A DNA stretch of 27,594 nt from a virus. Of the stretch, positions 9,345 to 21,266 are shown piece by piece. The position numbers and the translations under genes are program-made. The DNA lies in IMG/VR virus record IMGVR_UViG_3300034082_001807, positions 1 to 27,594 of that record. One strand, given 5' to 3'. The notes below the pieces were generated by a model. It had not been told where the DNA came from and did not search any database. It saw only the letters and a program-made list of their open reading frames with translations. Position 1 is the stretch's first letter; each line of letters starts with the position of its first letter.

Positions 9345-9784
9345 ACGCTTGGAGTCACCTGCCTAACGCAGAGCACATTGACCGCATTATTGAGTTAATG
9401 AAAGCGCATCCAGAGGCTTGGGATGCGGCTTATACTGCGGCTAGGACTTCTAGGACTTTGACTGCGGCTAGGGATGCGGCTAGGGATGCGGCTAGGGATG
9501 CGGCTAGGGATGCGGCATGCGTGGCGGCATGGGCTGCGGCTTATAATGCGGCATGGGCTGCGGCTAGGGATGCGGCTAGGGATGCGGCATGCGTGGCGGC
9601 ATGGGCTGCGGCTTATAGTGATTCAATCCTAGCTCTCATCGCTTATGATGACGCCGCCAGGTATCTAGAGATGAGCAGCTATGAACTCAAGATTTGGGTA
9701 GTACTGAGTGAAGAACCCGCTGCTATTCTTCTGTTGCCAACAGTGATTGCGTTTGAACAAATCCGAGAGATGAAAGCAGCATGA
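9341..9784 (+). CDS. Alanine-rich tetrad-repeat protein A2
   Basis: A 147-residue paralogue. Its head is nearly identical in DNA to A1, including the off-register insertion TSRTL. The tract holds a 72-base direct repeat: the segment encoding DAACVAAWAAAY occurs twice, at about 9512 and 9584. The last 40 or so bases (IAFEQIREMKAA) match B1 rather than A1, as if the 3' end had been converted from B1. ATGA overlap on both sides. Confidence 0.88.
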   Translation: MNAWSHLPNAEHIDRIIELMKAHPEAWDAAYTAARTSRTLTAARDAARDAARDAARDAACVAAWAAAYNAAWAAARDAARDAACVAAWAAAYSDSILALIAYDDAARYLEMSSYELKIWVVLSEEPAAILLLPTVIAFEQIREMKAA

Positions 9785-10221
9785 ACGCTTGGAGTCACCT
9801 ACCCAATGCAGGGCACATTGACCGCATTATTGCATCAGTGAAAGCACATCCAGAGGCTTGGGCTGCGGCTTGGGCTGCGGCTTGGGATGCGGCTAGGGCT
9901 GCGGCTAGGGCTGCGGCTTGGGATGCGGCTAGGAATGCGGCTAGGGCTGCGGCTAGGGATGCGGCTAGGGATGCGGCTTGGGATGCGGCTAGGGATGCGG
10001 CTAGGGATGCGGCTTGGGATGCGGCTAGGGATGCGACTTATAATGCGGCTAGGGATTCAATACTAGCTCTCATCGCCTATGATGACGCTGCCAAGTACCT
10101 AGAAATGTCCAGTGACCAAGTCAAAATTTGGGCAGAATTGAGTGAAGAACCCGCTGCTGTTCTTCTGTTGCCAGCAGTGATTGCCTTTGAGAAGATCAAA
10201 GAGACAGAATTTGTCAGTTGA
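9781..10221 (+). CDS. Alanine-rich tetrad-repeat protein B2
   Basis: A 146-residue paralogue and last member of the array. The head is almost identical in DNA to B1; the tract is rich in WDAA, RAAA and RDAA units. Its C-terminus is unique (EKIKETEFVS instead of EQIREMKAA), consistent with being the array end, and its stop lies against the TTGACA of the next promoter. Like the others it has no signal peptide or membrane segment and should be a soluble, long amphipathic helix flanked by two small conserved domains. Confidence 0.88.
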   Translation: MNAWSHLPNAGHIDRIIASVKAHPEAWAAAWAAAWDAARAAARAAAWDAARNAARAAARDAARDAAWDAARDAARDAAWDAARDATYNAARDSILALIAYDDAAKYLEMSSDQVKIWAELSEEPAAVLLLPAVIAFEKIKETEFVS

Positions 10222-11793: not shown

Positions 11794-11984
11794 ACAATTA
11801 CATTGATAACAACAAACAATACTGGGGTCCAGAGTTTGCCGAACTTGCTGAGGTGGAATACAAGCCCGAGCATGATGAGATTGCCGCAATGGGCTGTTAT
11901 ACCATGCTATATCACATTGCTGATAACTTTCGCGATGGTGAGTTTCGCGCAGAGATTTTGAAGATGGTGGGAGTTGAACAATGA
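11790..11984 (+). CDS. Small hypothetical ending in GVEQ
   Basis: A 64-residue acidic helical protein (ELAEVEYKPEHDEIAAMGCY, MLYHIADNFRDGEFRAEILKM) that ends VGVEQ like members of the MNERI family, although its body is different. The GGAGTTGA encoding that end is the ribosome-binding site of the gene at 11981. Overlaps both neighbours by 4 bases. Function unknown. Confidence 0.75.
   Translation: MNNYIDNNKQYWGPEFAELAEVEYKPEHDEIAAMGCYTMLYHIADNFRDGEFRAEILKMVGVEQ
11970..11983 (+). promoter_or_regulatory. GGAGTTGA translational junction
   Basis: GGAG at 11970-11973, then 7 bases and ATG 11981. The same bases encode the Gly-Val-Glu end of the upstream protein. Confidence 0.7.
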
Positions 11985-12286
11985 ACGAACGAGCTAAAGA
12001 ACTGTCAGACAGGATTACACAATATCTGGTAATGGGCGGAATGTTCAATCCTGAACTTGCCAACCACGAAGCGGTGAGAGATTTATTGATAGAATGTAGG
12101 AAGGTGTTAGATGATTTGTATCCGCATCCCAATGGCATTTGGGTGCTGTACGAGGATTACGAGCGGCTGAAGGCCGAGAACGAAGCCCTGCGGCGGGATG
12201 CAGAACTAGGGCGATGGATACGGGAAGAAACGCCGCCGATTGAAGAAATTGCCGCCCGCGTTGACGGAATGGAGGAAACGGAATGA
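11981..12286 (+). CDS. Chimeric hypothetical: MNER start plus GC-rich coiled-coil C-terminus
   Basis: A 101-residue protein with two parts. Residues 1-46 (MNERAKELSDRI to VLDDLYPHP) share the MNER start and AT-rich codon use of the neighbours. Residues 47-101 (LYEDYERLKAENEALRRDAE, ending in acidic residues) form a coiled coil with strongly GC-rich codons beginning near base 12130. This C-terminal type is common in betaproteobacterial prophages as far as I recall. The compositional break inside one gene suggests a recombination join. Overlaps the next start by 4 bases. Confidence 0.75.
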   Translation: MNERAKELSDRITQYLVMGGMFNPELANHEAVRDLLIECRKVLDDLYPHPNGIWVLYEDYERLKAENEALRRDAELGRWIREETPPIEEIAARVDGMEETE

Positions 12287-12738
12287 ACAAACGAATTCAA
12301 AAACTTGCTCAGCAGACTGATATTTGGTGTGATCAAAATCATGCCGGCGATGAGTTTTACCATCTTCGTTGGGAAGAGAAGTTTGCCCTGTTAATTGTTC
12401 AAGAATGTATTGATATTATTAGTCCATATACCATTAGTATGAGCAGAATCGGTGAAGAATACCTGCATCCTATTCAAGAAATTAAAAACAATTTCGGAGT
12501 TGGGGATGAACCAACGAAAATATATTCACCAGGAGAATCTGTGATGAGCGAGCAAGAAGAACTGAGATATGCGGCTTTTGCGTGGGAAATTAATTATCCA
12601 CGAGGCGGAGCAATGGACTTTATCGGACGTTATGCCACCGTGGAAGATGCTAACGATGCTCTATCTGGTTTGGGATTGAACTGGTATCAAATCGTAGACA
12701 CCGAGACTTTTCGCGTTGTAGAAGAGGGCCAGATATGA
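12283..12738 (+). CDS. MNKRI-family protein fused across an old gene junction
   Basis: A 151-residue frame. Residues 1-74 are a normal family member (MNKRIQKLAQQ, then WEEKFALLIVQECIDII, then NNFGVGDE). At the place where other members stop, the DNA still reads GGAGTTGGGG followed by ATGAACCAACG, the form of an intergenic junction, but no stop codon remains, so translation continues. After a short bridge a second module begins at Met88 (MSEQEELRYAAFAWEINYPR, ending in a beta-rich part). ATG 12544 for that module has its own AGGAGA at 12531-12536, so the downstream part may also be made separately (65 residues less the Met bridge, ending at 12738). The protein may thus be a fusion or a two-product gene. 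Confidence 0.7.
   Translation: MNKRIQKLAQQTDIWCDQNHAGDEFYHLRWEEKFALLIVQECIDIISPYTISMSRIGEEYLHPIQEIKNNFGVGDEPTKIYSPGESVMSEQEELRYAAFAWEINYPRGGAMDFIGRYATVEDANDALSGLGLNWYQIVDTETFRVVEEGQI
12544..12738 (+). CDS. Probable internal start: separate 64-residue product
   Basis: ATG 12544 with AGGAGA seven bases upstream opens an in-frame 64-residue product (MSEQEELRYAAFAWEIN, then FIGRYATVEDANDALSG, then WYQIVDTETF). It looks like a complete small domain of its own and is preceded by remnants of a gene junction. It overlaps the next gene's ATG by 4 bases. Whether the long, the short or both forms are made cannot be told from sequence. Confidence 0.5.
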   Translation: MSEQEELRYAAFAWEINYPRGGAMDFIGRYATVEDANDALSGLGLNWYQIVDTETFRVVEEGQI

Positions 12739-12950
12739 CCAGCGAACAACCCGAAACCCTGCGCGTAGCTGATGCGCTGGAAGTGAAGCACTCGCCGGGT
12801 GTTGTGCTGACTGTCGAGACTGTCCTCGCCGCCGCCCGTCTGCTGCGCGAGCAGCACGCTGAGATTGTGCGGCTGCGGGAGGAGGTTCTCGCGCTCCGGG
12901 GCGAGATTTGGGAGCTGCGTTCCGACCTGGAACTATTGAACGACCGCTAA
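12735..12950 (+). CDS. GC-rich coiled-coil protein, betaproteobacterial prophage type
   Basis: A 71-residue protein starting MTSEQPETLRVADALE and continuing as a heptad-rich helix (LLREQHAEIVRLREEVLAL). The start QPExLRxADALE followed by a helix is typical, from memory, of small hypotheticals in Burkholderiales phages. Codons are strongly GC-rich (GCC, CTG, CGC), unlike the AT-rich genes at either side, which points to recent transfer. Overlaps the previous stop by 4 bases. Function unknown. Confidence 0.8.
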   Translation: MTSEQPETLRVADALEVKHSPGVVLTVETVLAAARLLREQHAEIVRLREEVLALRGEIWELRSDLELLNDR

Positions 12951-12955
12951 TCCTC

Positions 12956-13044
12956 TAAGTCATTGATTCCATTAGAGTTATTTTGGTTGCGTTTTTCCTG
13001 CATTCAAGTATAATACTTGTATAGTAAATAAACGGAGACAGAAG
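12956..13044 (+). promoter_or_regulatory. Promoter cassette B (stem-loop plus sigma-70 promoter and RBS)
   Basis: Copy B. Arms CTCTAA and TTAGAG (6 bp) flank the loop GTCATTGATTCCA, followed by TTATTTTGG. Promoter TTGCGT 12987-12992 and TATAAT 13009-13014, spacer 16. The leader carries AACGGAGACAG with GGAGA as Shine-Dalgarno for ATG 13045. The cassette begins 6 bases after the previous stop codon. Confidence 0.8.
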
Positions 13045-13269
13045 ATGAGCAACTGGAATTTTGAAGGTCTGCGCGTTGAGGGCAAGTATCTAGGCGACTT
13101 CCCCGTCGCAGGTCTTGTGCAATCCAGCCGCGTCAAGTATGGCGGTGGCGTTCAGCATTCCGTTGTCCTTGATGACCGTTTGGACCTCTACGGTCGGGTC
13201 CGCGAGGCAGGCGAAGTCGTGCTGCTGGATCACAAGGACGTTGTCCGCGTCAAGAGTGAGAATGCTTAA
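13045..13269 (+). CDS. Conserved small phage protein (FEGLRVEGKYLGDFPVAG)
   Basis: A 74-residue beta-rich protein (two halves, FEGLRVEGKYLGDFPVAGLV and VKYGGGVQHSVVLDD, then a final strand EVVLLDHKDVVRV). I recall this as a widespread phage hypothetical, often with the sequence RVEGxYLGxFPVxG; the fold looks like a small barrel. The gene is directly served by cassette B. Function unknown. Confidence 0.87.
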   Translation: MSNWNFEGLRVEGKYLGDFPVAGLVQSSRVKYGGGVQHSVVLDDRLDLYGRVREAGEVVLLDHKDVVRVKSENA

Positions 13270-13296
13270 ATGTCTGAGGATTCAAAAGGTGAAGCC

Positions 13297-13602
13297 ATGA
13301 ACAAAATTGATAAAATGTGGACAGCACTTGCCGACCACCAGCCAGCGCCGGAGTACGCCGAAGCGTGGCAGAAAATGATCAAAGAGCGGACGTATGAGGC
13401 AGCGTACAAAGCGGCGGATGCGGCGTGGGCAGCGGCGGAGGCAGCGAATGTAGCGGCGGATGCAGGGGCGTCAGCGTCGTGGGAAGCCGCGGAGGATGCA
13501 GCGGCGGGGGCAGCGCGGGCAGCGTGGGCAGCGGCGGATGCAGCGGAGGAAGCGCGGGCAGCGCAGCGCGCCATCAACGAGATCAAGGAGGTGCAGTCGT
13601 GA
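13297..13602 (+). CDS. Alanine-rich protein C1 of second array
   Basis: A 101-residue protein with head MNKIDKMWTALADHQPAPEY, then AEAWQKMIKERTYEAAY, a tract of Ala with Ala-Ala-Asp and Ala-Ala-Glu units, and a tail AQRAINEIKEV. ATG 13297 matches the heads of the next two genes; ATG 13270 directly after the previous stop is possible and would add nine residues. Codons are GC-rich (GCG, GCA), quite unlike the GCGGCT units of the first array. The tail codons ATC AAG GAG GTG supply the AAGGAGGTG ribosome-binding site of the next gene. Confidence 0.82.
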   Translation: MNKIDKMWTALADHQPAPEYAEAWQKMIKERTYEAAYKAADAAWAAAEAANVAADAGASASWEAAEDAAAGAARAAWAAADAAEEARAAQRAINEIKEVQS

Positions 13603-13910
13603 ACGACAAACTTGACGAGATGTGGGCCGCGCTGTCCGCGCATGAGCCTGCGCCGAGCTACGCCGAGGCATGGGCGACCATGCTCCGCGAGCGGACAGAG
13701 GATGCGGCGGAGGCAGCGGCGCGGGAAGCGACGGCAGCGGCGCGGGCAGCGAGGCGGGCGGCGCTGGCGGGATGGGAGCGGGCAGAGACGGCAGCGACGG
13801 CAGCGTGGGCAGCGGCGGATTATGCCGCGGATGCAGCGGCGTGGGCGGCGGGGGCGGCGGATGCAGCACAGCGCGCCATTGACGCGATCAAGCGGGAGGT
13901 GAAGCCGTGA
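13599..13910 (+). CDS. Alanine-rich protein C2 of second array
   Basis: A 103-residue paralogue starting at GTG 13599, which overlaps the C1 stop as GTGA and follows a strong AAGGAGGTG at 13586-13593. Head MNDKLDEMWAALSAHEPAP, then SYAEAWATMLRERTEDAAE; the tract has Arg-rich and Trp-containing units (AARAARRAALAGWERAETAA); the tail AQRAIDAIKREV encodes GGGAGGTGA, the next ribosome-binding site. The open frame extending upstream is a shadow. Confidence 0.83.
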   Translation: MNDKLDEMWAALSAHEPAPSYAEAWATMLRERTEDAAEAAAREATAAARAARRAALAGWERAETAATAAWAAADYAADAAAWAAGAADAAQRAIDAIKREVKP

Positions 13911-14287
13911 ACGACAAACTGAACGAGATGTGGACGGCACTGGAAGCGCACGAGCCTGCGCCGAGCTATGCCGAGGCTTGGAAGAAAATGCTCAAAGAGC
14001 GGACGGCGGAGGCAGCGTACAAGGCGGCGTGTGTAGCGGCGGATGTAGCGGCGGGGTCACCGCCGCTGTCAGCGGATGCAGTGCGGGCAGCGGCAGCGGA
14101 GGCAGCGGCGTATGCAGCGGTGGAGGTAGCGCGGTCAGCGGAGGCAGAGGAAGACTTGCGGAAGGTGAACGCGGAACTGTTAGAAGCGTTGAAAACAGCG
14201 TTACATGCATCGTGGGACGGGCCAATGTCAGATTACGCACGGGACAAAGCCTGCGCCGCCATCGCCAAAGCAGAAGGGGTAAAATAA
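13907..14287 (+). CDS. Alanine-rich protein C3, chimeric C-terminus
   Basis: A 126-residue protein, GTG start with GTGA overlap. Residues 1-80 follow C1 and C2 (MNDKLNEMWTALEAHEPAPS and an Ala-rich tract interrupted by GSPPLS). From about residue 81 a different module begins (EEDLRKVNAELLEALKTALH, then SDYARDKACAAIAKAEGV). That module, LxxxNAELLEALK followed by ARAAIAKAEG, is a signature I associate with Burkholderiales prophage hypotheticals. The usual AQRAI tail is missing, so this is probably a fusion of the array's last gene with an unrelated one. Confidence 0.82.
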   Translation: MNDKLNEMWTALEAHEPAPSYAEAWKKMLKERTAEAAYKAACVAADVAAGSPPLSADAVRAAAAEAAAYAAVEVARSAEAEEDLRKVNAELLEALKTALHASWDGPMSDYARDKACAAIAKAEGVK

Positions 14288-14288
14288 C

Positions 14289-14666
14289 ATGGGCACTAAT
14301 TACTACGTTACAGAAAATGTCTGCGAATGCTGCAAGCGATACGATAAGAAGTATCACATCGGCAAGGCGTCCTACGGGTGGGCATTCACCTTTCAGGGCT
14401 ACAAGCATGATGGGCTGACCACTTGGCAGAAGTGGAAGGAGCACCTCAAGGACAAGATCATCAAAGATGAGTACGGGGACGATGTTCCCTACGAAAAGTT
14501 TGTTGAACTTGTGGAAACATACAAATCACCTAACTATGTAAATCCTGCAAACGGGCATAAGAATTCTATCCATAATGTTGAAGGGCGCAAGGAAGGTTGG
14601 TTCAATCCAGAGTATGACTGGGATGATCCCGAAGGATATTCATTCTGTTCTAGGGAATTTTCCTAG
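14289..14666 (+). CDS. Conserved phage hypothetical with Cys cluster (MGTNYYV)
   Basis: A 125-residue protein of a common phage family that starts MGTNYY, has a metal-binding-like cluster (Cys12, Cys14, Cys15, His23 in CECC and YHIGKASYGW), and ends with a repeat of aspartates and aromatics (NPEYDWDDPEGYSFCSREF). Zn binding is likely from the Cys/His spacing but the second pair is not obvious. It starts one base after the stop of C3. Codon use returns to the AT-rich norm halfway along. Function unknown. Confidence 0.88.
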   Translation: MGTNYYVTENVCECCKRYDKKYHIGKASYGWAFTFQGYKHDGLTTWQKWKEHLKDKIIKDEYGDDVPYEKFVELVETYKSPNYVNPANGHKNSIHNVEGRKEGWFNPEYDWDDPEGYSFCSREFS

Positions 14667-14676
14667 GAGTTGATTT

Positions 14677-15312
14677 ATGAGAATGATCAAACAGGACAAT
14701 CTTCATCGATTCTTTAATAAGCAAGGAGAAATTGCTTGGATTAAATTTGGCGTTCAAGGATTTAAATTATACATTGAAACCCCATCTGATTGGCATGAAC
14801 AAAAACGATTTTGGTTCTATTGGTCTCTAGGATTGATTTCTGGTGGATTTTCTCTGCCTTGGTATGGACAAGTTGTTCCAGACCATTATCAATGCTCTGG
14901 TCCTAGATATGGATTCAACTTTTTCTCAGATCTTTTGTTTGTGTACTATGGCAAAGACACAGGTCGTAGATCTTCTTCCAAATCCAAAGCGTTTTCTATG
15001 CCTTGGTCTTGGGGTAGTTGCGTAGAACACAAGATTCTTTCTGAAAAAGAGTCTCATCCATTCACCTATGTTCTCAAGAACGGTACTATTCAAAACAGAA
15101 CAGCAACAATCTACTCTGAGTACGGAAAGTGGACTAGGTATTGGATTCCGTGGGAACAAGAACATACTACCATTTGGGTAGAGTTTGATGATGAAGTGGG
15201 AGAGCGTTCTGGGTCGTGGAAAGGCGGAATTACTGGTACTGGATACGAAATGCTGCCCAATGAAACTCCTCTTGACGCACTTCGAAGGATGGAAAAAGAG
15301 CGAAAGCTGTAA
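14677..15312 (+). CDS. Conserved phage hypothetical (DHYQCSGPRYGFNFF family)
   Basis: A 211-residue protein, very rich in aromatic residues. I recognise the segments VPDHYQCSGPRYGFNFFSD, YYGKDTGRRSS, FSMPWSWGSCVEHKIL and GERSGSWKGGITGTGYEML as conserved parts of a phage family found in many large phages. No function is known to me; it may be a structural or host-take-over protein. Either ATG 14677 or 14683 could be the start. TAGGAG lies at 14664-14669. The TAA of this gene is the first element of cassette C. Confidence 0.88.
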   Translation: MRMIKQDNLHRFFNKQGEIAWIKFGVQGFKLYIETPSDWHEQKRFWFYWSLGLISGGFSLPWYGQVVPDHYQCSGPRYGFNFFSDLLFVYYGKDTGRRSSSKSKAFSMPWSWGSCVEHKILSEKESHPFTYVLKNGTIQNRTATIYSEYGKWTRYWIPWEQEHTTIWVEFDDEVGERSGSWKGGITGTGYEMLPNETPLDALRRMEKERKL

Positions 15313-15398
15313 GTCATTGATTTTGTTAGAGTTATTTCGGTTGCGTTTTTCCTGCATTCAAGTATAATACTTGTATAGTGAACGAACGGAGACAGAAG
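15310..15398 (+). promoter_or_regulatory. Promoter cassette C
   Basis: Copy C, starting at the TAA of the previous gene. Arms AGCTGTAA and TTAGAGTT pair with one mismatch and one wobble around loop GTCATTGATTTTG. Promoter TTGCGT 15341-15346 and TATAAT 15363-15368, spacer 16. The leader GTGAACGAACGGAGACAG contains both a possible GTG start (15378) in frame with the gene and the GGAGA ribosome-binding site for ATG 15399. Confidence 0.8.
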
Positions 15399-15590
15399 AT
15401 GAACTTTAGATTGCAAAACTACAATGAATTTAAGGATGGAGTTCGTTGGCACGACTATTTTGCTATCGTGATCAATGAATTTCCTGTAATCCTTGTCCGA
15501 AAGTATGACTGGCCTCATGAGGGCGATCAGTATACTTTCTCTGTCCAAATTTTGGGTTTCCGAGTTTATCAGCATATCGGAGTTGAGTGA
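15399..15590 (+). CDS. Small hypothetical ending in GVE
   Basis: A 63-residue beta-rich protein (RWHDYFAIVINEFPVILVRKY, YTFSVQILGFRVYQHIGVE). It is not a member of the MNERI family by its body, yet ends GVE encoded by GGAGTTGAG. ATG 15399 is preferred because GGAGA stands at the normal distance; the in-frame GTG at 15378 would add MNERRQK. Function unknown. Confidence 0.8.
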   Translation: MNFRLQNYNEFKDGVRWHDYFAIVINEFPVILVRKYDWPHEGDQYTFSVQILGFRVYQHIGVE

Positions 15591-15592
15591 TG
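15579..15592 (+). promoter_or_regulatory. GGAGTTGA translational junction
   Basis: GGAG at 15579-15582, then 7 bases and ATG 15590, which follows the TGA of the previous gene in the form TGATG. Confidence 0.7.
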
Positions 15593-15823
15593 AACGAAGA
15601 TAGGTCGGAAATATTTTCGCAACTCGCATACGATGTAGATAATCGGTATGTGGATTTATACCTTAGAAAAGTTTTTGGTGGTAATGCATTCGTGCTGGAA
15701 ATATCAGATACTTCCGATATTGAGTCGCAAGATACTGAGATTGAACTTTATCTCACAAAAGAAAATTTAAAATTGGTTATTGACCGATTGACAAAGGTAT
15801 TAGAAAATGAACAATCAAATTGA
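15590..15823 (+). CDS. Hypothetical protein
   Basis: A 77-residue acidic protein beginning MNEDRSEIFSQLAYD, with strands (YVDLYLRKVFGG, AFVLEISD) and a C-terminal helix (TKENLKLVIDRLTKVLENE). It looks like a small alpha/beta domain of unknown role. Start by comparison with other junctions: 7 bases after GGAG. Overlaps the next gene by 17 bases. Confidence 0.75.
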   Translation: MNEDRSEIFSQLAYDVDNRYVDLYLRKVFGGNAFVLEISDTSDIESQDTEIELYLTKENLKLVIDRLTKVLENEQSN

Positions 15824-16034
15824 AAAACTTGCTGAACAGGCTGGATTTATGGATTCTTGGTTTTCTGAATCCGGTGATGATTGTGAACAAGAACTTAAAA
15901 AGTTCGGCGAGTTGCTTATCAAGAAATGTGTTCAAGTAATTCAAGACGAGGCTTGCTATACAGGCAACGCCAAGGTTGCTGGTTTGGATATAGCGAAAGA
16001 AGCGATTCAAAAGTATTTTGGAGTTGAACAATGA
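15807..16034 (+). CDS. MNERI/FGVE family protein
   Basis: A 75-residue member: MNNQIEKLAEQAGF, then a variable region, KKFGELLIKKCVQVI, and QKYFGVEQ. The family has an N-terminal helix with LAEQAG, a central KFAELIxRECxxxI helix and a terminal xxHFGVE. I recall it as recurrent in environmental T4-like phages; function unknown. The start lies inside the previous gene by 17 bases. Confidence 0.83.
   Translation: MNNQIEKLAEQAGFMDSWFSESGDDCEQELKKFGELLIKKCVQVIQDEACYTGNAKVAGLDIAKEAIQKYFGVEQ
16020..16033 (+). promoter_or_regulatory. GGAGTTGA translational junction
   Basis: GGAG at 16020-16023, then 7 bases and ATG 16031; encodes the FGVE end upstream. Confidence 0.7.
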
Positions 16035-16210
16035 ACGAACAAATGATTGAGATGCTGAAGAAACTTGCTGGAGAAAACACTCTCGGCGAGAACATGATTT
16101 CTGCATACGAAGCCAGTGGTGGGAACTATGACGATGCCTATCGTATGGGCAGGGGCGACGGTAAGATTCTTCTTGCTCGCGAACTTCTAGAGATGCTGGA
16201 GAATCAGTGA
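16031..16210 (+). CDS. Small helical hypothetical (MNEQ start)
   Basis: A 59-residue protein, from ATG 16031 to TGA 16208-16210, with helices MNEQMIEMLKKLAGEN and KILLARELLEMLENQ around a Gly-rich polar middle (EASGGNYDDAYRMGRGDG). It shares the ATGAACGAAC start and the KLAG of the MNERI family but lacks KFAELI and FGVE. The GGGD and YDDAYxxG pattern may be a small fold of its own. The GGAG of the upstream family member is its ribosome-binding site. Confidence 0.72.
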   Translation: MNEQMIEMLKKLAGENTLGENMISAYEASGGNYDDAYRMGRGDGKILLARELLEMLENQ

Positions 16211-16392
16211 TGGAACATAAGACAATTTGCTGGGAGTGTGAGTTGGTTCTAACCGACAAGAACGGTAGGCACCACAACAGCAATTTTGACAGCAGATTGG
16301 TTTCTTTTACTCCCAAAATGACGGTTGACACTGCGTATGCATTGTGTGATAATTGCTATGATCAAGTGCTCAACAAACTAGGGCTTGAATAA
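16210..16392 (+). CDS. Small zinc-ribbon-like protein
   Basis: A 60-residue protein with two CxxC pairs (Cys7/Cys10 in ICWEC, Cys46/Cys49 in LCDNC), the spacing of a zinc ribbon, and strands between them (RLVSFTPKMTVD). It starts at ATG 16210 in TGATG; GTG 16207 is an alternative. The end reads GGGCTTGAATA before ATG 16392, a degenerate form of the GGAGTTGA junction. Such ribbons often bind nucleic acid or proteins; no specific function. Confidence 0.78.
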   Translation: MEHKTICWECELVLTDKNGRHHNSNFDSRLVSFTPKMTVDTAYALCDNCYDQVLNKLGLE

Positions 16393-16655
16393 TGAACGAA
16401 CGAATCAGTAAAGCGAAACGCTTAGAGATTGCCAATGTCTGCTATGCTAATGTAGCAGGGCTTTTTGCTATGTTTCAAAACCCTAGACATCGCGGACCAA
16501 ACTTTACTTGGAATACTTTTGCTGATTATTGCGAAGAAAATTCACAAGACTGGATGGTTATTCATAATGTTCGTGGTCATAAAGAAACGATTTTGGCTGA
16601 GGCTAAACTCTTATCTAAAGAGATTGCACAACGTCTAGTTGAAAGGATGTCATAA
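16392..16655 (+). CDS. Hypothetical protein with MNERI start
   Basis: An 87-residue helical protein. It shares the start ATGAACGAACGAAT (MNERI) with the family but the body is different (SKAKRLEIANVCYANVAGLF, TWNTFADYCEENSQDW, then AEAKLLSKEIAQRLVERM). It ends with AGGATGTCATA, in which AGGA gives a ribosome-binding site 7 bases before ATG 16655. Another case of a common start joined to an unrelated gene. Confidence 0.78.
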   Translation: MNERISKAKRLEIANVCYANVAGLFAMFQNPRHRGPNFTWNTFADYCEENSQDWMVIHNVRGHKETILAEAKLLSKEIAQRLVERMS

Positions 16656-16876
16656 TGAACGAACGAATTAAAGAACTCGCTAAACAGGCTACTGTCAAAG
16701 TGAATAATCCATTTGTTAACAGTGATGGAGAAGTAGTCTGCGATAGTTGGGAAGAAGGCATCAGCATTCAAAAGTTTGCCGAGTTGCTCATCAAAGAGTG
16801 CGGCGAGATCGCGGTACTTGGCGACCCGAGGTATTCTGCCCAACACAACATTCATAAGCACTTCCGGGTTGAGTGA
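16655..16876 (+). CDS. MNERI/FGVE family protein
   Basis: A 73-residue member: MNERIKELAKQATVKV, then SIQKFAELLIKECGEI, then HNIHKHFRVE. FGVE is changed to FRVE because the DNA is CGGGTTGAG, so the Shine-Dalgarno is weakened from GGAG to GGGT. The start is followed by the next gene in the form TGATG. Confidence 0.83.
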   Translation: MNERIKELAKQATVKVNNPFVNSDGEVVCDSWEEGISIQKFAELLIKECGEIAVLGDPRYSAQHNIHKHFRVE

Positions 16877-17256
16877 TGATTTCTGAAGAATTACGAAAAT
16901 ATATTGATATGGTAAGGCTGGAAGAATCCCGAGACTTGATCCATGAAATGGCGAATGTTGGTCCAAAACGACACGGGATTGAAAACGTTTATATTTTCGT
17001 AGGGAAAACAAATAAACAACATGGACTTAGAGTAAAAGTGTCAAAAGTTCCTGGGAAATATGATCATGATGATAACTTTGTGATTCAAATGCCAAGTTTA
17101 GATTATGATCCTACGCAAGTACCAAGATGGATTAAACACACGACAATGAAAAAAATCTTAGAATGGATTAAATTGAATCAAGAATTATTGTCTGATTATG
17201 AACACGGAAAAATTTGGGACACCGATGATTTCCTTAATAACATCTCTAAGGTATAA
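16876..17256 (+). CDS. Conserved phage hypothetical (VYIFVGKTNKQHGLRVKVS)
   Basis: A 126-residue protein. The N-terminal helix (SEELRKYIDMVRLEESRDL) and the beta-rich middle (NVYIFVGKTNKQHGLRVKVS, then DNFVIQMPSLDYD) followed by IKLNQELLSDYEHG resemble a hypothetical domain I recall from T4-like phages. ATG 16876 overlaps the previous stop; GTG 16873 is an alternative. Codons are unusually A/T-rich compared with the next gene. Function unknown. Confidence 0.78.
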   Translation: MISEELRKYIDMVRLEESRDLIHEMANVGPKRHGIENVYIFVGKTNKQHGLRVKVSKVPGKYDHDDNFVIQMPSLDYDPTQVPRWIKHTTMKKILEWIKLNQELLSDYEHGKIWDTDDFLNNISKV

Positions 17257-17257
17257 A

Positions 17258-17692
17258 ATGAACATTAACACACCAGATCGCGGATACTACTTCCACGCAG
17301 ATGCCATCAAGAAGATCCAAGATCACTATGGCGCCAAGTACATGGGCTATTGGGCAGTCGAGCGCAAGAATGGTTGGTCGGATGAACCCGTAGATGTGTT
17401 CTACCAGCCCACGCCCGACACTGCCAAGGGGCACAGTCACTACTTTGGCATGTTTGTCGATCCTGCTGGTACCTTGATGATCACGGACGCACAGAGTGCC
17501 TTCAGCGAGCCAATCTATGGCCTTTTGTGCGATGACGGCGAAGTGATTGTAAGTCGCTATCGTCACGATTATGTGACCAAGGATGGCTGCATGGTAGACG
17601 GTGGTCGCGACTACTTCAAGCGTAGTGATCGGGGCAAGACTGTGAAGATCATTGTGGATCGGGATCAGTTTGTGATCACGGAGGAACTCTAA
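17258..17692 (+). CDS. Conserved phage hypothetical
   Basis: A 144-residue protein starting at ATG 17258, right after the previous stop (TAAA ATG); the frame upstream is a shadow. Segments GYYFHADAIKKIQDHYGAKY, GYWAVERKNGWSDEPVDVFY, SHYFGMFVDPAGTLMITDAQ and YGLLCDDGEVIVSRYRHDY look like a compact beta-rich domain, which I recall as conserved among phages. Codon use is more GC-rich than in the previous gene. Its TAA is the first element of cassette D. Function unknown. Confidence 0.85.
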   Translation: MNINTPDRGYYFHADAIKKIQDHYGAKYMGYWAVERKNGWSDEPVDVFYQPTPDTAKGHSHYFGMFVDPAGTLMITDAQSAFSEPIYGLLCDDGEVIVSRYRHDYVTKDGCMVDGGRDYFKRSDRGKTVKIIVDRDQFVITEEL

Positions 17693-17778
17693 GTCATTGA
17701 CTTCCTTAGAGTTATTTTGGTTGCGTTTTTCTTGCGTTCATGTATAATGTATACATGATGAACGAACGGAGACAGAGT
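17682..17778 (+). promoter_or_regulatory. Promoter cassette D (best stem-loop)
   Basis: Copy D has the best hairpin: AACTCTAA and TTAGAGTT, an 8-bp perfect stem around loop GTCATTGACTTCC, followed by ATTTT, like a weak terminator that includes the stop codon of the upstream gene. Promoter TTGCGT 17721-17726 and TATAAT 17743-17748, spacer 16. ATG 17755 and 17758 lie within about 10 bases of the -10, while ATG 17779 follows GGAGACAG. The cassette therefore closes one unit and opens the next. Confidence 0.82.
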
Positions 17779-18063
17779 ATGAAACTCGAACACAGACACA
17801 GTTGGCAAAACAGACCTGATGTAGAAGTTGACACTTTTGGTTTAGTCAGTGGTTACGCTGGTTACGCTGATTATGCTGAGCTGCTGCTGCACCCCTATAG
17901 GCCTGGCGATAGTGTAGCTGTTAAAGTTCGCATCGAACGGTTGGCGACAATCGTTGCTCGTCTGATCGACCACATTGGCTTGACCGATGATGAGAAGCGA
18001 GCAATGTTTCGCGATATCTTGGGCGATTGGAAGTTTGTGGAGGATAAAAATGACCGACCGTGA
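17779..18063 (+). CDS. Hypothetical protein, cassette-driven
   Basis: A 94-residue protein (MKLEHRHSWQNRPDVEVDTF, a Gly/Tyr/Ala segment, then SVAVKVRIERLATIVARLID and DEKRAMFRDILGDW). ATG 17779 follows GGAGACAG; upstream in-frame ATGs at 17755 and 17758 would add MMNERRQS. Not recognised. The end overlaps the next gene by 14 bases. Confidence 0.78.
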   Translation: MKLEHRHSWQNRPDVEVDTFGLVSGYAGYADYAELLLHPYRPGDSVAVKVRIERLATIVARLIDHIGLTDDEKRAMFRDILGDWKFVEDKNDRP

Positions 18064-18373
18064 ACTGTTGGAATTGGCCGCGAAGGCGGCGGGGATTAAA
18101 ATTCCAAAGCCTAACCCATGGTTCACATACGACGAAGCGTATGGCTTCATGTGGATGAACATGGATGGTCGCGCAGTCGAAAAAAAATGGAATCCGCTCG
18201 CCGACGATGGCGACGCATTCAGGTTAGCGGTGCGGTTACGCATGATTGTGACGCCAGGAACCGCACGATTGCTTGATGGGCGAGTCTTTGGGAAAGACAT
18301 GGATTCCATAGAAGAAACTCGCCGCGCCATCGTGCGCGCTGCCGCAGAGATTGGGAGGAACATCGATGTTTGA
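18050..18373 (+). CDS. Phage ABA-sandwich-type protein of betaproteobacterial prophage family
   Basis: A 107-residue protein. The start MTDRELLELAAKAAGI, the segment KKWNPLADDGDAFRLAVRLR and the end IEETRRAIVRAAAEIGRN match a family I know from Burkholderiales phages that belongs to the phage ABA sandwich domain group. Function unknown. Codons are GC-rich compared with neighbours such as 18366, supporting transfer from a betaproteobacterial source. Start ATG 18050; the longer frame is a shadow of the previous gene. Confidence 0.85.
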   Translation: MTDRELLELAAKAAGIKIPKPNPWFTYDEAYGFMWMNMDGRAVEKKWNPLADDGDAFRLAVRLRMIVTPGTARLLDGRVFGKDMDSIEETRRAIVRAAAEIGRNIDV

Positions 18374-18746
18374 TCATTTTTCGCATCATCACAAGTCCGT
18401 CAGCATCAACCACACCATAGAGATCAACCGCGCACCAACAGATGAATCCGTTCGCTTGCTGCGTGAGATGGAACACAAGGCCAAAGAAGAAATTGTAAAG
18501 GCAGTGGCTGTTCAAAACACAGAGTTTAGCGCAGTCGTTCACACCAGACACGATCACATTTCGTGGCAACTGTTGGTCAAGGTCATTTACTCGTTCAATG
18601 GCAAGAAGCTGACAACGGACTTTTCCGCTAACTATGATGAGCCAAAGGAAGTTTGGATTCCCAAGTTGATCGATGCTCTTGCAAAAGACATCGCATGTCA
18701 TATTTTGAGTAAGGCTCTCACGCCTGAATTGTTGAGGAAGATCTAA
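18366..18746 (+). CDS. Conserved phage hypothetical (RAPTDESVRLLREMEHKAKE)
   Basis: A 126-residue protein starting at ATG 18366, with GGGAGGA just upstream. It begins MFDHFSHHHKSVSI, then INRAPTDESVRLLREMEHKA, a helix that I recall as conserved in phages, then VQNTEFSAVVHTRHDHISWQ and a strand-rich part. It looks like a small two-layer domain; no function known. Overlaps the previous gene by 8 bases and the next by 1. Confidence 0.87.
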   Translation: MFDHFSHHHKSVSINHTIEINRAPTDESVRLLREMEHKAKEEIVKAVAVQNTEFSAVVHTRHDHISWQLLVKVIYSFNGKKLTTDFSANYDEPKEVWIPKLIDALAKDIACHILSKALTPELLRKI

Positions 18747-19024
18747 TGAAGCAAGACATTCTAATTCTAGCAACACAGGCATTTGGCGACAAGGCTGCGA
18801 CTCTTTATATGCGTGAACTGGAAAGTTCGCAGAGCTTATTTCCGAAGACGAACGCGAGGGGCAAAGCCATGAAAGACGAAACGTGGGAACTGAAAGAACA
18901 GATCTGGACCAAAGTTCATGACTTGGTTGACGAGATGACCAAAAATCTAGACGAAGAAGAAGATGAAATACTTCGTCAGGCGCTGACAGAAGAGTTTAGG
19001 TTTTGGCGAAGGAGCGATCCATGA
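18746..19024 (+). CDS. Hypothetical helical protein
   Basis: A 92-residue charged helical protein (MKQDILILATQAFGDKAATL, TWELKEQIWTKVHDLVDEMT, then a run of acidic residues EEEDEILRQALTEEFRFW). Not recognised. The ATG shares a base with the previous stop (TAATG); the next gene overlaps it by 4 bases as ATGA. Confidence 0.75.
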   Translation: MKQDILILATQAFGDKAATLYMRELESSQSLFPKTNARGKAMKDETWELKEQIWTKVHDLVDEMTKNLDEEEDEILRQALTEEFRFWRRSDP

Positions 19025-19251
19025 CCCGCGAGGACATCGTCCGGATGGCGCGGGAGGCTGGTTATCCTCTAGACGAGGCGCAAAGCGACATCGTTCTGCG
19101 ATTTCAGGCCGTACTGGCCGATTTTGCTCAAGCCGCATACGCCGCAGGAGCCGCCGCCGAGCGCGAAACTATAGCAAAGAAGTTTGACGGACCCGTTTGG
19201 TCCTATGATTATCGCGAGATTGCCGCAGCGATCCGCGCAAGAGGAGAATAA
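19021..19251 (+). CDS. Small GC-rich protein, betaproteobacterial prophage type
   Basis: A 76-residue protein: MTREDIVRMAREAGYPLDEA, then RFQAVLADFAQAAYAAGAAA, ending YREIAAAIRARGE. The pattern MxREDIxRMAREAG followed by a helical part and AAAIRARGE is one I associate with Burkholderiales phages. GC-rich codons contrast with the AT-rich family members nearby. ATG 19021 overlaps the previous gene by ATGA; AAGGAG at 19009-19014 supports it. Function unknown. Confidence 0.83.
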   Translation: MTREDIVRMAREAGYPLDEAQSDIVLRFQAVLADFAQAAYAAGAAAERETIAKKFDGPVWSYDYREIAAAIRARGE

Positions 19252-19252
19252 A

Positions 19253-19573
19253 ATGTCAGGTGGACACTTTCAATACAAGCAGTGGGAAATTCAAAACATT
19301 GCCGACGAGGTTGAGCAGCTAATCCTCACCAACAATGAGGAGTCAGTTGACACTTGGGACAATAAGCGTTATAGTAGAGCTTACTCGCCTGAGACCATTG
19401 AGGAGTTCAAGCGAGGGATGATGATTCTACGCCAAGCCTATGTCTATGCTCAGCGCATTGATTGGCTGGTCAGCGGTGATGATGGTGAAGACAGTTTTCA
19501 TCGTCGCTTGAAGCTGGAACTGGACAAACTCAAGGACAACGCAGATGAACGAACGAATTCAAAAACTGATTGA
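19253..19573 (+). CDS. Conserved phage hypothetical (MSGGHFQYKQW)
   Basis: A 106-residue protein of a widespread phage family starting MSGGHF, with helix EIQNIADEVEQLILTNNEE and the conserved YSPETIEEFKRGMMILRQAY, then AQRIDWLVSGDDGEDSFHRR. ATG 19253 with GAGGAG at 19241-19246; the upstream frame is a shadow. Predicted mainly helical. Function unknown. Its 3' end overlaps the start of the next gene by 29 bases. Confidence 0.9.
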   Translation: MSGGHFQYKQWEIQNIADEVEQLILTNNEESVDTWDNKRYSRAYSPETIEEFKRGMMILRQAYVYAQRIDWLVSGDDGEDSFHRRLKLELDKLKDNADERTNSKTD

Positions 19574-19742
19574 ACAATGCACGATAGAATATCGCGATGG
19601 TAATGGTGGATACGTTGATCAAGTAGATGCGGAGAAGCTTGCCGAGTTGATCGTGCGGGAATGTAGCAACTTCTTGAAAGATACACTAGACGATCATTTT
19701 GCGGCAGAACAGTTAGAAGAACATTTTGGAGTTGAAGAATGA
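19545..19742 (+). CDS. MNERI/FGVE family protein
   Basis: A 65-residue member with a perfect family outline: MNERIQKLIEQCTIEY, then VDAEKLAELIVRECSNFL, then EQLEEHFGVEE. It begins with ATGAACGAACGAATTC inside the previous gene (29-base overlap), suggesting it was inserted over the end of that gene, which may have lost or changed its original C-terminus (residues DERTNSKTD are encoded by the MNERI start). Confidence 0.85.
   Translation: MNERIQKLIEQCTIEYRDGNGGYVDQVDAEKLAELIVRECSNFLKDTLDDHFAAEQLEEHFGVEE
19728..19741 (+). promoter_or_regulatory. GGAGTTGA translational junction
   Basis: GGAG at 19728-19731, then 7 bases and ATG 19739; encodes the GVE end upstream. Confidence 0.7.
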
Positions 19743-19981
19743 TTATATATTTGGTATGCAATACCGTCGATCTTGGCTATCATGCTGAGTATGCTTATAC
19801 TACGCTTGAGCGGGCAGAGGCTAAAATGGCTGAGTTAATAGAAGCGGCTAAACAACAATTCATCGAGTCAGCGATGACATCAACGGCTTATTGTGCTGGT
19901 AAAACTTATGAAGTGGCTGCTGAAGATGCTGAACAATACCATGAAAAATGGGAAATCGCCCAAGTAGAGGTAGAAGAATGA
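19739..19981 (+). CDS. Hypothetical protein
   Basis: An 80-residue acidic protein (MIIYLVCNTVDLGYHAEYAY, TTLERAEAKMAELIEAAKQQ, ending EIAQVEVEE). It resembles a small alpha/beta protein in which a helix with AKMAELI follows strands; not recognised further. Start set by the GGAGTTGA junction and ATGA overlap at its end with the next gene. Confidence 0.78.
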   Translation: MIIYLVCNTVDLGYHAEYAYTTLERAEAKMAELIEAAKQQFIESAMTSTAYCAGKTYEVAAEDAEQYHEKWEIAQVEVEE

Positions 19982-20115
19982 ACAAACAAATTCAAGACGC
20001 ATTAAAGCAAGTTAAGTTGATGGCAAAACAATATGGCAGAGACAGTAAGCAATACAAAGATGCCATAAAGCATCAAGCGGAACTCGTATCGAAAATATTT
20101 GGAGTTGAAGAATGA
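19978..20115 (+). CDS. Very short MNKQI/FGVE family protein
   Basis: A 45-residue protein from ATG 19978 to TGA 20113-20115: MNKQIQDALKQVKLMAKQYG, then a helical stretch and KIFGVEE. It keeps the MNxxI start and FGVE end but lacks the central KFAELIVREC, so it is a minimal or truncated relative. ATGA overlaps the previous stop; its own end carries GGAGTTGA for the next gene. Confidence 0.72.
   Translation: MNKQIQDALKQVKLMAKQYGRDSKQYKDAIKHQAELVSKIFGVEE
20101..20114 (+). promoter_or_regulatory. GGAGTTGA translational junction
   Basis: GGAG at 20101-20104, then 7 bases and ATG 20112. Confidence 0.7.
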
Positions 20116-20420
20116 TTAATCTAAATTTGAGTATCAGTAATCCATGGCGTGCATATCAGCATGGGCACAATTATTTTGCCAATGCTTGGCTGTTGAACAA
20201 AAACAAGAGCCTTGAAGTGCAGGTTAGTCACGGCGGTTCGGAACTTTTAGAGTTTCGGTTTTCATGGAGTATGAGAACTGACCATGCTGGCATAAGGATT
20301 GTATTAGGTTTGTTCTATAGGTTTATCCATGTTAACTTCTACGACATTCGGCACTGGAATGATGAAAAGGGTCGATATGTAGACTATAGTAATCCAGAAG
20401 AAGTTAAGGATTGGAGTTGA
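20112..20420 (+). CDS. Conserved phage hypothetical (SNPWRAYQ / FYDIRHWN)
   Basis: A 102-residue protein: MINLNLSISNPWRAYQHGHN, then SLEVQVSHGGSELLEFRFSW, then MRTDHAGIRIVLGLFYRFIH and NFYDIRHWNDEKGRYV. This beta-rich outline is a phage family I recognise, of unknown function. Its last codons GAT TGG AGT TGA contain GGAGTTGA in a different frame from the GVE-ending genes, so here the DNA junction survives without the peptide. Confidence 0.85.
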   Translation: MINLNLSISNPWRAYQHGHNYFANAWLLNKNKSLEVQVSHGGSELLEFRFSWSMRTDHAGIRIVLGLFYRFIHVNFYDIRHWNDEKGRYVDYSNPEEVKDWS

Positions 20421-20426
20421 ATGATG
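20413..20426 (+). promoter_or_regulatory. GGAGTTGA translational junction in another reading frame
   Basis: GGAG at 20413-20416, then 7 bases and ATG 20424. The upstream protein ends Asp-Trp-Ser, not Gly-Val-Glu, showing that the nucleotides rather than the peptide are conserved. Confidence 0.72.
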
Positions 20427-20684
20427 AACAATTTTCAAGATCGCATTGACAGAAGAATCAAACAACTTGCTGAACAGGCTGGCTACAGCCCACTATCGCC
20501 GCCAACTTTTGCCGATGAATTGAATGAAATTTTTATGCGAAAGTTCGCCGAGGCGATTGTTCGGGAATGTTTGGCACAGGCGGACACTATCCGTGACGGT
20601 TGTGAAGCAGATGGCGAAGATGAACAGGCACTAGGTGCTGACTTGGTAGGATTAGCGATTTCGAGACATTTTGACGTTGAGTGA
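20424..20684 (+). CDS. MNERI/FGVE family protein
   Basis: An 86-residue member: MNNFQDRIDRRIKQLAEQAG, then MRKFAEAIVRECLAQADTIR and ISRHFDVE. ATG 20424 is chosen over ATG 20421 because only it stands 7 bases after GGAG, as at the other junctions. FGVE is changed to FDVE (GACGTTGAG), which weakens the ribosome-binding site of the next gene. Function unknown. Confidence 0.84.
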   Translation: MNNFQDRIDRRIKQLAEQAGYSPLSPPTFADELNEIFMRKFAEAIVRECLAQADTIRDGCEADGEDEQALGADLVGLAISRHFDVE

Positions 20685-20965
20685 TGGCCAAGATTTATCA
20701 AGACGAAAAAGGTTTGTATTCTAAAGTTGGAGGCTACATTGTTCGCCCTGAAAATGGAACATCTGTTTTTTCTGTAGGCAACAAGACCGAAGGATTCCAT
20801 TTTGGCGGATCAACTTTGGTGGGTATGGGTAAGATCAAAGGTCGTCAAGGCAAATACCAAGAGTATTGGCGCACTCCAGATTACTTCTACGAACTGATGC
20901 AAATGGAAAGAGAAATTGAACTGAAAAAGCAAACAATAAATCCAAGTATGCCATATTCGTTTTAG
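20684..20965 (+). CDS. Hypothetical protein
   Basis: A 93-residue basic protein: MAKIYQDEKGLYSKVGGYIV, then TSVFSVGNKTEGFHFGGSTL, GKIKGRQGKYQEYWRTPDYF and a C-terminal helix YELMQMEREIELKKQ. Beta-rich first half; not recognised. ATG 20684 in TGATG; GTG 20681 is an alternative. Confidence 0.77.
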   Translation: MAKIYQDEKGLYSKVGGYIVRPENGTSVFSVGNKTEGFHFGGSTLVGMGKIKGRQGKYQEYWRTPDYFYELMQMEREIELKKQTINPSMPYSF

Positions 20966-20989
20966 TAATAACAACATTACGATGTATTA

Positions 20990-21052
20990 ATGGCATATTG
21001 GAACGATCAGATCAGTACAAAAGAAATGGTGATAGGATTAAAAAGTTTATGA
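20990..21052 (+). CDS. Possible 20-residue mini-gene
   Basis: In the 83-base gap before the next family member, ATG 20990 opens a 20-codon frame (MAYWNDQISTKEMVIGLKSL) whose TGA overlaps ATG 21049 as ATGA, the coupling used throughout this region. There is no clear ribosome-binding site. It could be a leader peptide, a remnant of a longer gene, or chance. Confidence 0.3.
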   Translation: MAYWNDQISTKEMVIGLKSL

Positions 21053-21264
21053 ACAAACGAATTGGTAACCTTGCTGAACAGGCAGGGTTTAACCTTATAC
21101 AACACGGTGATCATACTATATATGACATCTCAACAAAAGAGAACTTGAAGGAGTTCGCCGAGTTGATTGTTAGAGAATGTGTTATGATGGCAGATGAGTT
21201 TGAATTAGACGTAAATCAGTCGGGGCTTGTTGATAGAATGAAAAAACATTTTGGAGTTGAATAA
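21049..21264 (+). CDS. MNERI/FGVE family protein
   Basis: A 71-residue member: MNKRIGNLAEQAGFNLIQHG, then LKEFAELIVRECVMMADEFE, then MKKHFGVE, the clearest FGVE end. ATG 21049 is preferred over upstream in-frame alternatives by family alignment, although it lacks a GGAGTTGA before it; translation may be coupled to the mini-frame at 20990. It supplies GGAGTTGA to the next gene. Confidence 0.84.
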   Translation: MNKRIGNLAEQAGFNLIQHGDHTIYDISTKENLKEFAELIVRECVMMADEFELDVNQSGLVDRMKKHFGVE

Positions 21265-21266
21265 TG
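21253..21266 (+). promoter_or_regulatory. GGAGTTGA translational junction
   Basis: GGAG at 21253-21256, then 7 bases and ATG 21264. Confidence 0.7.

Follow-up and report, generated by a model that had tools for sequence, protein, structure and literature searches.

The window analysed here, one entire virus record of 27,594 bases (IMG/VR record IMGVR_UViG_3300034082_001807), carries members of what appears to be a multi-copy family of small phage genes, mostly encoding about 65-90 amino acids and each containing three near-constant DNA stretches, referred to below as joints. The start joint would be ATGAACGAACGAATT…GAACTTG, the middle joint a stretch of about 30 nucleotides (nt), AAGTTCGCCGAGTTGATTGT..GGGAATGT, and the tail joint ACATTTYGGAGTTGAAGAATGA. 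The stretch from start to middle is named V1, and that from middle to tail V2. We consider it likely, with a probability of about 0.82, that short-homology recombination at the conserved joints shuffles this phage family and that the 3' joint has a second role as ribosome-binding site. V1, V2 and the gene following the tail would be swapped between phages by recombination at the joints, most likely of the homologous kind and acting on nearly identical stretches of about 20-35 nt. The GGAG of the tail, lying 7 nt before the next start, would allow translation of a spliced-on gene by coupling to the one upstream, and a newly arrived gene could be translated immediately.

The features read in the sequences that carry this view are the frozen codons of the joints, the reassortment of modules, the variety of the downstream genes, the tails read in other frames, and the loss of GGAG from tails that no start codon follows. 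A preliminary description of the window had interpreted the Gly-Val-Glu (GVE) C-terminus as a ribosome-binding plug to which different genes can be joined. This interpretation is partly supported: it was right on the plug and incomplete, having missed that the GVE tail is one of three joints between interchangeable modules. Of wider reach is the phage gene family as such, which appears to be shuffled at three joints in the DNA, the plug being one of them.

Reassortment of modules and of the following gene

All sequence data are assemblies, namely, metagenome contigs. The family sample comprises 689 IMG/VR members with the middle motif and an FG[VI] tail. Every pair of complete genes was compared for local similarity in V1 and in V2. 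Exact duplicate genes were removed before every pair count, which lowers the number of pairs sharing both modules; members with a V1 or V2 shorter than 12 residues, and module-sharing pairs falling between two similarity cut-offs (3 in the untargeted set), were left out.

V1 and V2 combine almost freely. Among the 486 complete genes from untargeted scans, 286 pairs share V1 only, 200 share V2 only and 13 share both, while shuffled modules used as a control gave 0 similar pairs. When all loci are taken, those of the scans targeting a single V1 and a single V2 included, the 548 genes give 383, 412 and 28 such pairs, respectively. Nearly all V1 types with several members (86 out of 92) occur with at least two V2 types, and 89 of the 95 multi-member V2 types occur with at least two V1 types. 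The shared modules are diverged, with a median nucleotide identity of 0.79 for V1 and 0.82 for V2, and they are identical in 12/286 and 9/200 pairs, respectively. Furthermore, where the two genes of a module-sharing pair come from different fetched loci (483 pairs), these loci have no 31-mer in common in 288 cases and fewer than 100 in 446; a few of the fetched loci sit on the same contig.

The two targeted scans illustrate this exchange. The scan for one V2 (AN[HQ]CDLLLDHKIS…, ANHCDLLLDHKISSEW…) returned 27 stretches with 25 family members, in which this V2 follows 15 V1 types, and that for one V1 (ATTIEEHKWG…) returned 11 stretches with 10 family members, one of them cut by a contig end, and six V2s. 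Combinations of the ANHCDLLLDHKISSEW… V2 with three of these V1s each recur under different IMG dataset numbers (loci L156/L446/L452, L444/L448 and L453/L456), some of the numbers being near each other and perhaps from a single project. Genes of the window take part in the reassortment as well, namely, 19545 (with L328), 21049 (with L046) and 12283 (with L318 and L113).

The gene after the tail is exchanged too. It is unrelated in 350 of 360 pairs sharing V2 and similar in 3, whereas it is similar in 9 of 17 pairs sharing both modules. Conversely, 103 pairs have non-family next genes that resemble each other; their V2s are unrelated in 93 of these pairs and similar in the other 10. The proposal of the preliminary description that many different genes can follow the tail is borne out by these counts.

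In the middle joint, co-inheritance with V1 ends and that with V2 begins over about 30 nt, with no single breakpoint, the resolution being low because few positions vary there. A sharp crossover at the 5' edge of this joint was considered and was not upheld with cluster weighting and a 0.9 identity cut. With regard to copy number, 32 large records (chosen records above 100 kb, part of those available, which may be fragments) were surveyed: CGGAGTTGANNNATG is present in 26 of them, with up to nine copies, and GCCGAGTTGATTRT in 21, with up to eight. In L445, L460 and L462, an extra N-terminal module (MNENIKAGADIHAGDGGYS…GK-MRIREL) lies ahead of the usual start helix, and the N-terminus encoded at 8006-8182 of L435 is similar, which suggests a third interchangeable module.

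The tail joint as a probable ribosome-binding site

A start codon lies 11 nt after the GGA of the tail in 635 of the 689 family members, and these plugged tails keep GGAG in 601 cases. In 33 others, the start is elsewhere within +7 to +16, and GGAG is present in 25. The remaining 21 tails have no start nearby, and only 10 of these unplugged tails have GGAG (Fisher p = 1e-8 versus the 635, a value made optimistic by near-duplicates among the 21). The substitution of Val by Ile in the tail (FGI), which breaks GGAG, occurs in 25/635 plugged versus 10/21 unplugged tails. That unplugged tails might merely belong to older copies was rejected, since the middle joints of these 21 genes are as canonical as those of plugged genes (0.83 vs 0.87, p = 0.48); plugged genes with poor middle joints still have GGAG in 293 of 313 cases. 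The ribosome-binding placement put forward in the preliminary description thus stands. In sample tails, stop and next start overlap in ATGA and TAATG forms.

The same DNA is also found in other reading frames, which were assigned by the longest open frame. In the first locus set, 402 copies of GGAGTTGANNN[AG]TG comprise 354 in the GVE frame (22 of them outside FGV tails), 17 after short frames, 18 in frame +2 and 13 in frame +1, the latter assignment being doubtful. For the 15-mer ACATTTYGGAGTTGA in the full set, the corresponding numbers are 483 in the GVE frame, 13 in frame 2, 6 in frame 1 and 13 after short frames. A recheck revealed that at least four of the six frame-1 copies are really GVE-frame tails misassigned by the longest-frame rule, a doubt that extends to frame +1 of the first set, and it upheld the 13 frame-2 copies. 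Each of the 13 reads TFRS* or TFWS* at its end, with an ATG at +11. Their upstream proteins were at first taken to be all unrelated to the family; this was rejected, as eight have a family-like start and five are other proteins (L035 twice, L309, L322 and L392). Seven of the eight family-like genes also possess the middle motif (L115, L124, L194, L371, L376, L377 and L379), the eighth being L219. The GVE peptide can therefore be lost, also in family genes, with the DNA and the start kept. L115, L194 and L371 have one common V2 behind three different V1s, with the tail read as TFRS*, so the frame-shifted tail was inherited together with V2.

From its placement, GGAG would function as a ribosome-binding site in the hosts. 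As in translational coupling by termination-reinitiation, family tails overlap stop and start (635/689) and carry GGAG in the last upstream codons (601/635). In E. coli, removal of the Shine-Dalgarno (SD) sequence of overlapping gene pairs is reported to have lowered reinitiation in four out of five cases (PMC6728339). Unlike usual coupled pairs, one fixed element stands here after many family genes and before many unrelated genes, sometimes in another frame. Translation of the downstream gene is predicted to depend on that of the upstream gene at family tails. An analogous C-terminal SD sequence was seen in the cultured Rheinheimera phage Barba1A (L434, 4779-5024), where a non-family protein ends in EHLGGEE with AGGAGGTGAAGAATGA, a fuller anti-SD match.

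These data bear on the best placed of the alternatives, according to which the GVE codons are frozen solely as the ribosome-binding site of the next gene, without a role in recombination. It accounts for the loss of GGAG in unplugged tails, the 11-nt spacing in most members and the ATG at +11 of every frame-2 copy. It leaves the reassortment of modules and next genes unexplained, and comparable freezing is seen, as described below, in the start and middle motifs, neither of which is a ribosome-binding site. We regard it as unlikely.

Codon conservation at the three joints

Codon usage was examined by codon-neutral IMG/VR scans, with patterns leaving all third positions free and samples of about 120 stretches each among the matches listed. 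Among 104 distinct listed matches of KHFGVE with an overlapping start, the tail codons are GGA in 100, GTT in 82 and GAA in 94. The upstream codons of the same genes include GGA in 74/305 Gly and GTT in 157/367 Val, and KHFGVE-stop in bacterial genomes has GGA in only 15/40 cases. One of these controls, L246 (CAIVQI010000356.1), is itself a family member, which leaves 39 true bacterial controls; its contig, binned with a Bacteroidetes metagenome-assembled genome, is probably a phage contig and possibly a hint at the host. In a second scan, for FAELIVREC, 206 genes were found among the matches listed; of these, 179 have an FG[VI]x tail, and 171 of the 179 use GGA. The freeze is present in each of three classes of contig guanine-plus-cytosine content (276/285, 300/306 and 43/44). 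Selection on the nucleotides, as the preliminary description had proposed, is in line with these counts, and varied synonymous codons of GVE did not occur in the relatives.

The middle motif is also frozen in the 206 genes, with GAG in 182, TTG in 182, ATT in 202, GAA in 193 and TGT in 198, its Val and Arg codons being variable. Between random pairs of members, the synonymous difference at codons for the same residue is 0.21 at the start, 0.27 in the middle and 0.23 at the tail, compared with 0.38 for the six residues that follow the start and 0.52 for the V regions. Codon freezing is a property of three islands, just one of which is able to be a ribosome-binding site. Frozen third positions, the test on which the preliminary description had relied, are hence unspecific, and we rejected them as proof of an SD role, because MNERI and FAELIVREC are frozen to a similar degree; that role needs other evidence, which the unplugged tails and the other-frame copies supply. 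What keeps the joints alike is either exchange, which would need or homogenise them, or a further role as DNA.

Joints and family genes in the window

The pattern GGAGTTGANNNATG has 8 copies in the window, all on the + strand, versus 0.02 expected from 100 dinucleotide shuffles, and the backward-read control pattern has 0 matches in the window. The gap between GGAG and ATG is 7 bases at all 8 GGAGTTGA-NNN-ATG sites. Seven of these junctions had been recognised in the preliminary description, with the same gap, and the eighth, at 14666, had been missed. Six of the 8 elements (11970, 15579, 16020, 19728, 20101 and 21253) encode Gly-Val-Glu at the end of the upstream protein, and the translations confirm this, as well as the reading of the element at 20413 as D-W-S-stop. 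The latter and the element at 14666, which starts with the final base of the upstream stop (…REFS-TAG), are outside the GVE frame. The proteins encoded at 15399 and 11790 end in GVE and GVEQ, respectively, and lie outside the MNERI family, as had been stated.

Tail-joint elements:
11970-11983, + strand: GGAGTTGA + 3 + ATG, ends the 11790 protein (…VGVEQ), not of the MNERI family
14666-14679, + strand: eighth copy, not in the GVE frame
15579-15592, + strand: ends the 15399 protein (…QHIGVE), not of the MNERI family
16020-16033, + strand: tail joint of family gene 15807 (KYFGVEQ)
19728-19741, + strand: tail joint of family gene 19545 (EHFGVEE)
20101-20114, + strand: tail joint of short gene 19978 (KIFGVEE)
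20413-20426, + strand: out-of-frame element (…KDWS*), precedes family gene 20424
21253-21266, + strand: tail joint of family gene 21049 (KHFGVE)

Family genes and their middle joints:
12283-12738, + strand: family gene with a decayed tail joint (GGAGTTGGGGATG at 12496); V2 also in L318 and L113 with unrelated V1
12382-12408, + strand: middle joint of gene 12283 (FALLIVQEC)
15807-16034, + strand: family gene MNNQI…FGELLIKKC…KYFGVEQ
15903-15929, + strand: middle joint of gene 15807
16655-16876, + strand: family gene with a degenerate tail, HFRVE (CGGGTTGAG)
16775-16801, + strand: middle joint of gene 16655 (FAELLIKEC)
19545-19742, + strand: family gene; V2 SNFLKDTLDDHFAAEQLE identical in L328, there behind an unrelated V1
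19638-19664, + strand: middle joint of gene 19545 (LAELIVREC)
19978-20115, + strand: short gene with family start and tail, clear middle joint absent
20424-20684, + strand: family gene with tail HFDVE (GACGTTGAG) without GGAG; a start codon is nonetheless present after the tail
20544-20570, + strand: middle joint of gene 20424 (FAEAIVREC)
21049-21264, + strand: family gene MNKRI…FAELIVREC…KHFGVE; V1 also in L046, there with an unrelated V2
21154-21180, + strand: middle joint of gene 21049 (TTCGCCGAGTTGATTGTTAGAGAATGT)

Degenerate copies of the tail element occur at 12496, 16380 and 16866 as previously described; the one placed at 20674 (HFDVE, GACGTTGAG) lacks any GGAG. With its tail joint decayed at 12496, gene 12283 reads through into the following gene, and a remnant MNQR-type start is kept inside it, in another frame, in an apparent gene fusion. 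The middle and tail joints both contain GAGTTGA (consensus TTCG(CC)GAGTTGA). Recombination between a middle and a tail joint would delete V2, and the short gene at 19978-20115 is perhaps an example.

Three leaders, at 12956-13047, 15310-15401 and 17690-17781, are near-identical, with a promoter-like TTGCGT…TATAAT site, and end in CGGAGACAGA, with ATG a few bases later; two of the three have GAACGAACGGAGACAG. The GAACGAACG they carry is DNA of the family start joint, so the promoter cassette may be mobile through the same homology. The MGTNYYV…CECC… gene at 14289-14666 has relatives in L011, L012, L046 and L340, where they immediately follow the tail joints of different genes, and is a recurrent passenger of the tail plug. 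In other respects, the window harbours two arrays of paralogous alanine-rich proteins (AARDAARDAAR…), at 8482-10221 and 13297-14287, with overlapping or abutting genes. In the second array, AAGGAGGTG or CGGGAGGTG in the tail codons would serve as SD sequence, in agreement with the preliminary description: AAGGAGGTG is found at 13585, before a GTG start, and CGGGAGGTG at 13893, the junction that follows. Pfam, PHROG and PDB sequence searches also identified genes for a 5'-3' exonuclease and an ATP-dependent ligase. A megablast comparison of the first 25,000 bases of the window with 50,697 phage records gave no match.

Proposed recombination and related systems

The pattern is most simply explained by homologous recombination between short, nearly identical stretches, and the process would be phage-driven. 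Phage recombinases are described as working on diverged and short homologies, with a minimum of 30 bp for Red-beta in one paper (PMC2327257, PMC3945230). A RecA/UvsX-like protein (PF00154) is encoded in 23 of the 32 large records.

Variable DNA flanked by short conserved sites, and the GAGTTGA common to the middle and tail joints, would also be expected of a dedicated diversity machine recombining the modules, such as a diversity-generating retroelement, an integron or a shufflon. In the 32 large records, which are possibly fragments, reverse transcriptase (PF00078) and tyrosine integrase (PF00589) are found in none, and serine resolvase (PF00239) passes the cut-off in one, with a weak match in one more. 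In addition, the three joints differ in sequence and the middle joint has no single breakpoint. We hold such a machine to be improbable, about half as probable as a ribosome-binding role without recombination.

Three known systems invite comparison with joint recombination as proposed here. The Gp38 proteins of T4-type phages have hypervariable segments and conserved motifs parting them, four and five in number, respectively (PMC12529663). The present family likewise has hypervariable segments between conserved motifs, the difference being that gp38 is a single tail-tip adhesin and the family consists of multi-copy small proteins; glycine-rich flanking motifs of the gp38 type were not found, the family motifs being MNERI, FAELIVREC and HFGVE. 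The conserved motifs of Gp38 serve as recombination points, and we know of no SD role for them. In lambdoid phages, modules are reported to be swapped sometimes via flanking short conserved sequences, and Red and Rad52-like recombinases tolerate divergence (PMC2327257, PMC3945230). In contrast to lambdoid mosaicism, the family joints are internal to the reading frame, and many paralogous copies use the same ones. Integron cassettes are interchangeable coding units with a constant joining sequence; unlike them, the family joints lie within the coding sequence and carry the SD sequence of the next gene, and tyrosine integrase was found in 0/32 large records. Searches of open PMC text retrieved no paper describing such a shuffled-joint system, as judged by titles and abstracts.

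Several points weigh against recombination at the joints combined with a ribosome-binding tail. No RecA-family match was obtained in 9 of the 32 large records, and RecT is absent in all nine, other recombinases not having been searched. The frozen joints might be due to a DNA or RNA function not yet recognised rather than to recombination. The contigs are all metagenomic. The unplugged class is small (21) and contains near-duplicates (L337/L379, L446/L455, and L381 twice plus L215). Gene 20424 of the window lacks GGAG in spite of the start codon downstream, and GGAGTTGA is only a partial anti-SD match. Lastly, no cultured family member was found, six partial matches among those listed having failed the start and middle motifs.

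Protein fold and occurrence of the family

AlphaFold2 models of two members with unrelated modules have the same alpha-beta-beta-alpha-alpha topology, with model confidence (pLDDT) of 88 and 86. The predicted order is a helix, a beta-hairpin (V1), a long helix comprising the middle joint and the start of V2, and a helix made of the end of V2 and the HF of the tail, GVE lying beyond this last helix in the models. A scaffold with exchangeable parts suggests binding proteins, and the modules would give them different binding targets.

Of 101 members compared with Pfam and PHROG, at most 2 matched any one family (best E 0.00055), and PDB sequence searches yielded nothing useful for the family. Foldseek against the PDB gave a best E of 1.8, and a second structural comparison a best Z of 3.5; matches in BFVD are uncharacterised proteins of uncultured Caudovirales phages (best E 0.0013). 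The exact family strings do not occur in open PMC text. The family is thus unannotated. A tblastn search for a member in cultured phages retrieved none at E up to 0.1 and five weak matches at E up to 10. Searches with joint DNA gave ten matches of 17-18 bases, and others 181 records (40 listed) and 53 records (15 listed). Six candidates among the matches listed were rejected: Rheinheimera phage Barba1A matches the tail DNA, its protein ending in EHLGGEE; the metagenome-derived MW202796 encodes an IKQDFGVE protein without the middle motif; and Streptococcus Javan407, Lactococcus P118, Enterococcus VP14 and Erwinia MM7 have start-joint-like bases only, in proteins lacking the middle motif and tail.

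The models are relevant to the view that conservation acts at the protein level only, MNERI, FAELIVREC and HFGVE being needed by the fold and the codons looking frozen in a young family. AlphaFold2 indeed puts MNERI, FAELIVREC and the HF of the tail in helices, GVE being left outside. Against this view, modules that are related and lie in the same genes vary at about 0.33 of the codons for one residue (V2-sharing pairs, non-identical residues), versus 0.21-0.27 in the joints of random members; so do family genes speak against it that keep the tail DNA and read it as TFRS, as does the commoner change of GV to GI in unplugged tails. We find it very improbable. Just as improbable is the joining of unrelated halves by assemblers at short repeats: the joints are many-copy short repeats and all data are assemblies, but the shared modules are diverged (median identity about 0.8), nearly all multi-member types are reassorted (86/92 V1, 89/95 V2), and the same combinations recur under different IMG dataset numbers, some close and perhaps of one project, which makes assembly chimeras a poor explanation.

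Implications

Since the tail joint carries the ribosome-binding site of the next gene, recombination there could be safe for expression. The conserved C-terminal GVE and the frozen codons of this family need not report protein function. Phage mosaicism becomes testable at base resolution, with three short joints at which exchange is recurrent and modules that can be tracked across metagenomes. The family may be a reservoir of varied binding proteins. A wider proposal, to which we give somewhat less than an even chance, is that uncultured phages share a pool of V1 and V2 modules from which small two-module proteins are assembled combinatorially at the in-gene joints, the last joint acting as a universal translation plug, and that one set of short sequences thereby serves to shuffle modules, genes and operons alike; the predicted alpha-beta-beta-alpha-alpha scaffold would stay constant, with V1 supplying the beta-hairpin and V2 a helix end and loop. 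If true, phages at large would possess a combinatorial repertoire of binding proteins, which might plausibly act in host takeover or against host defences.

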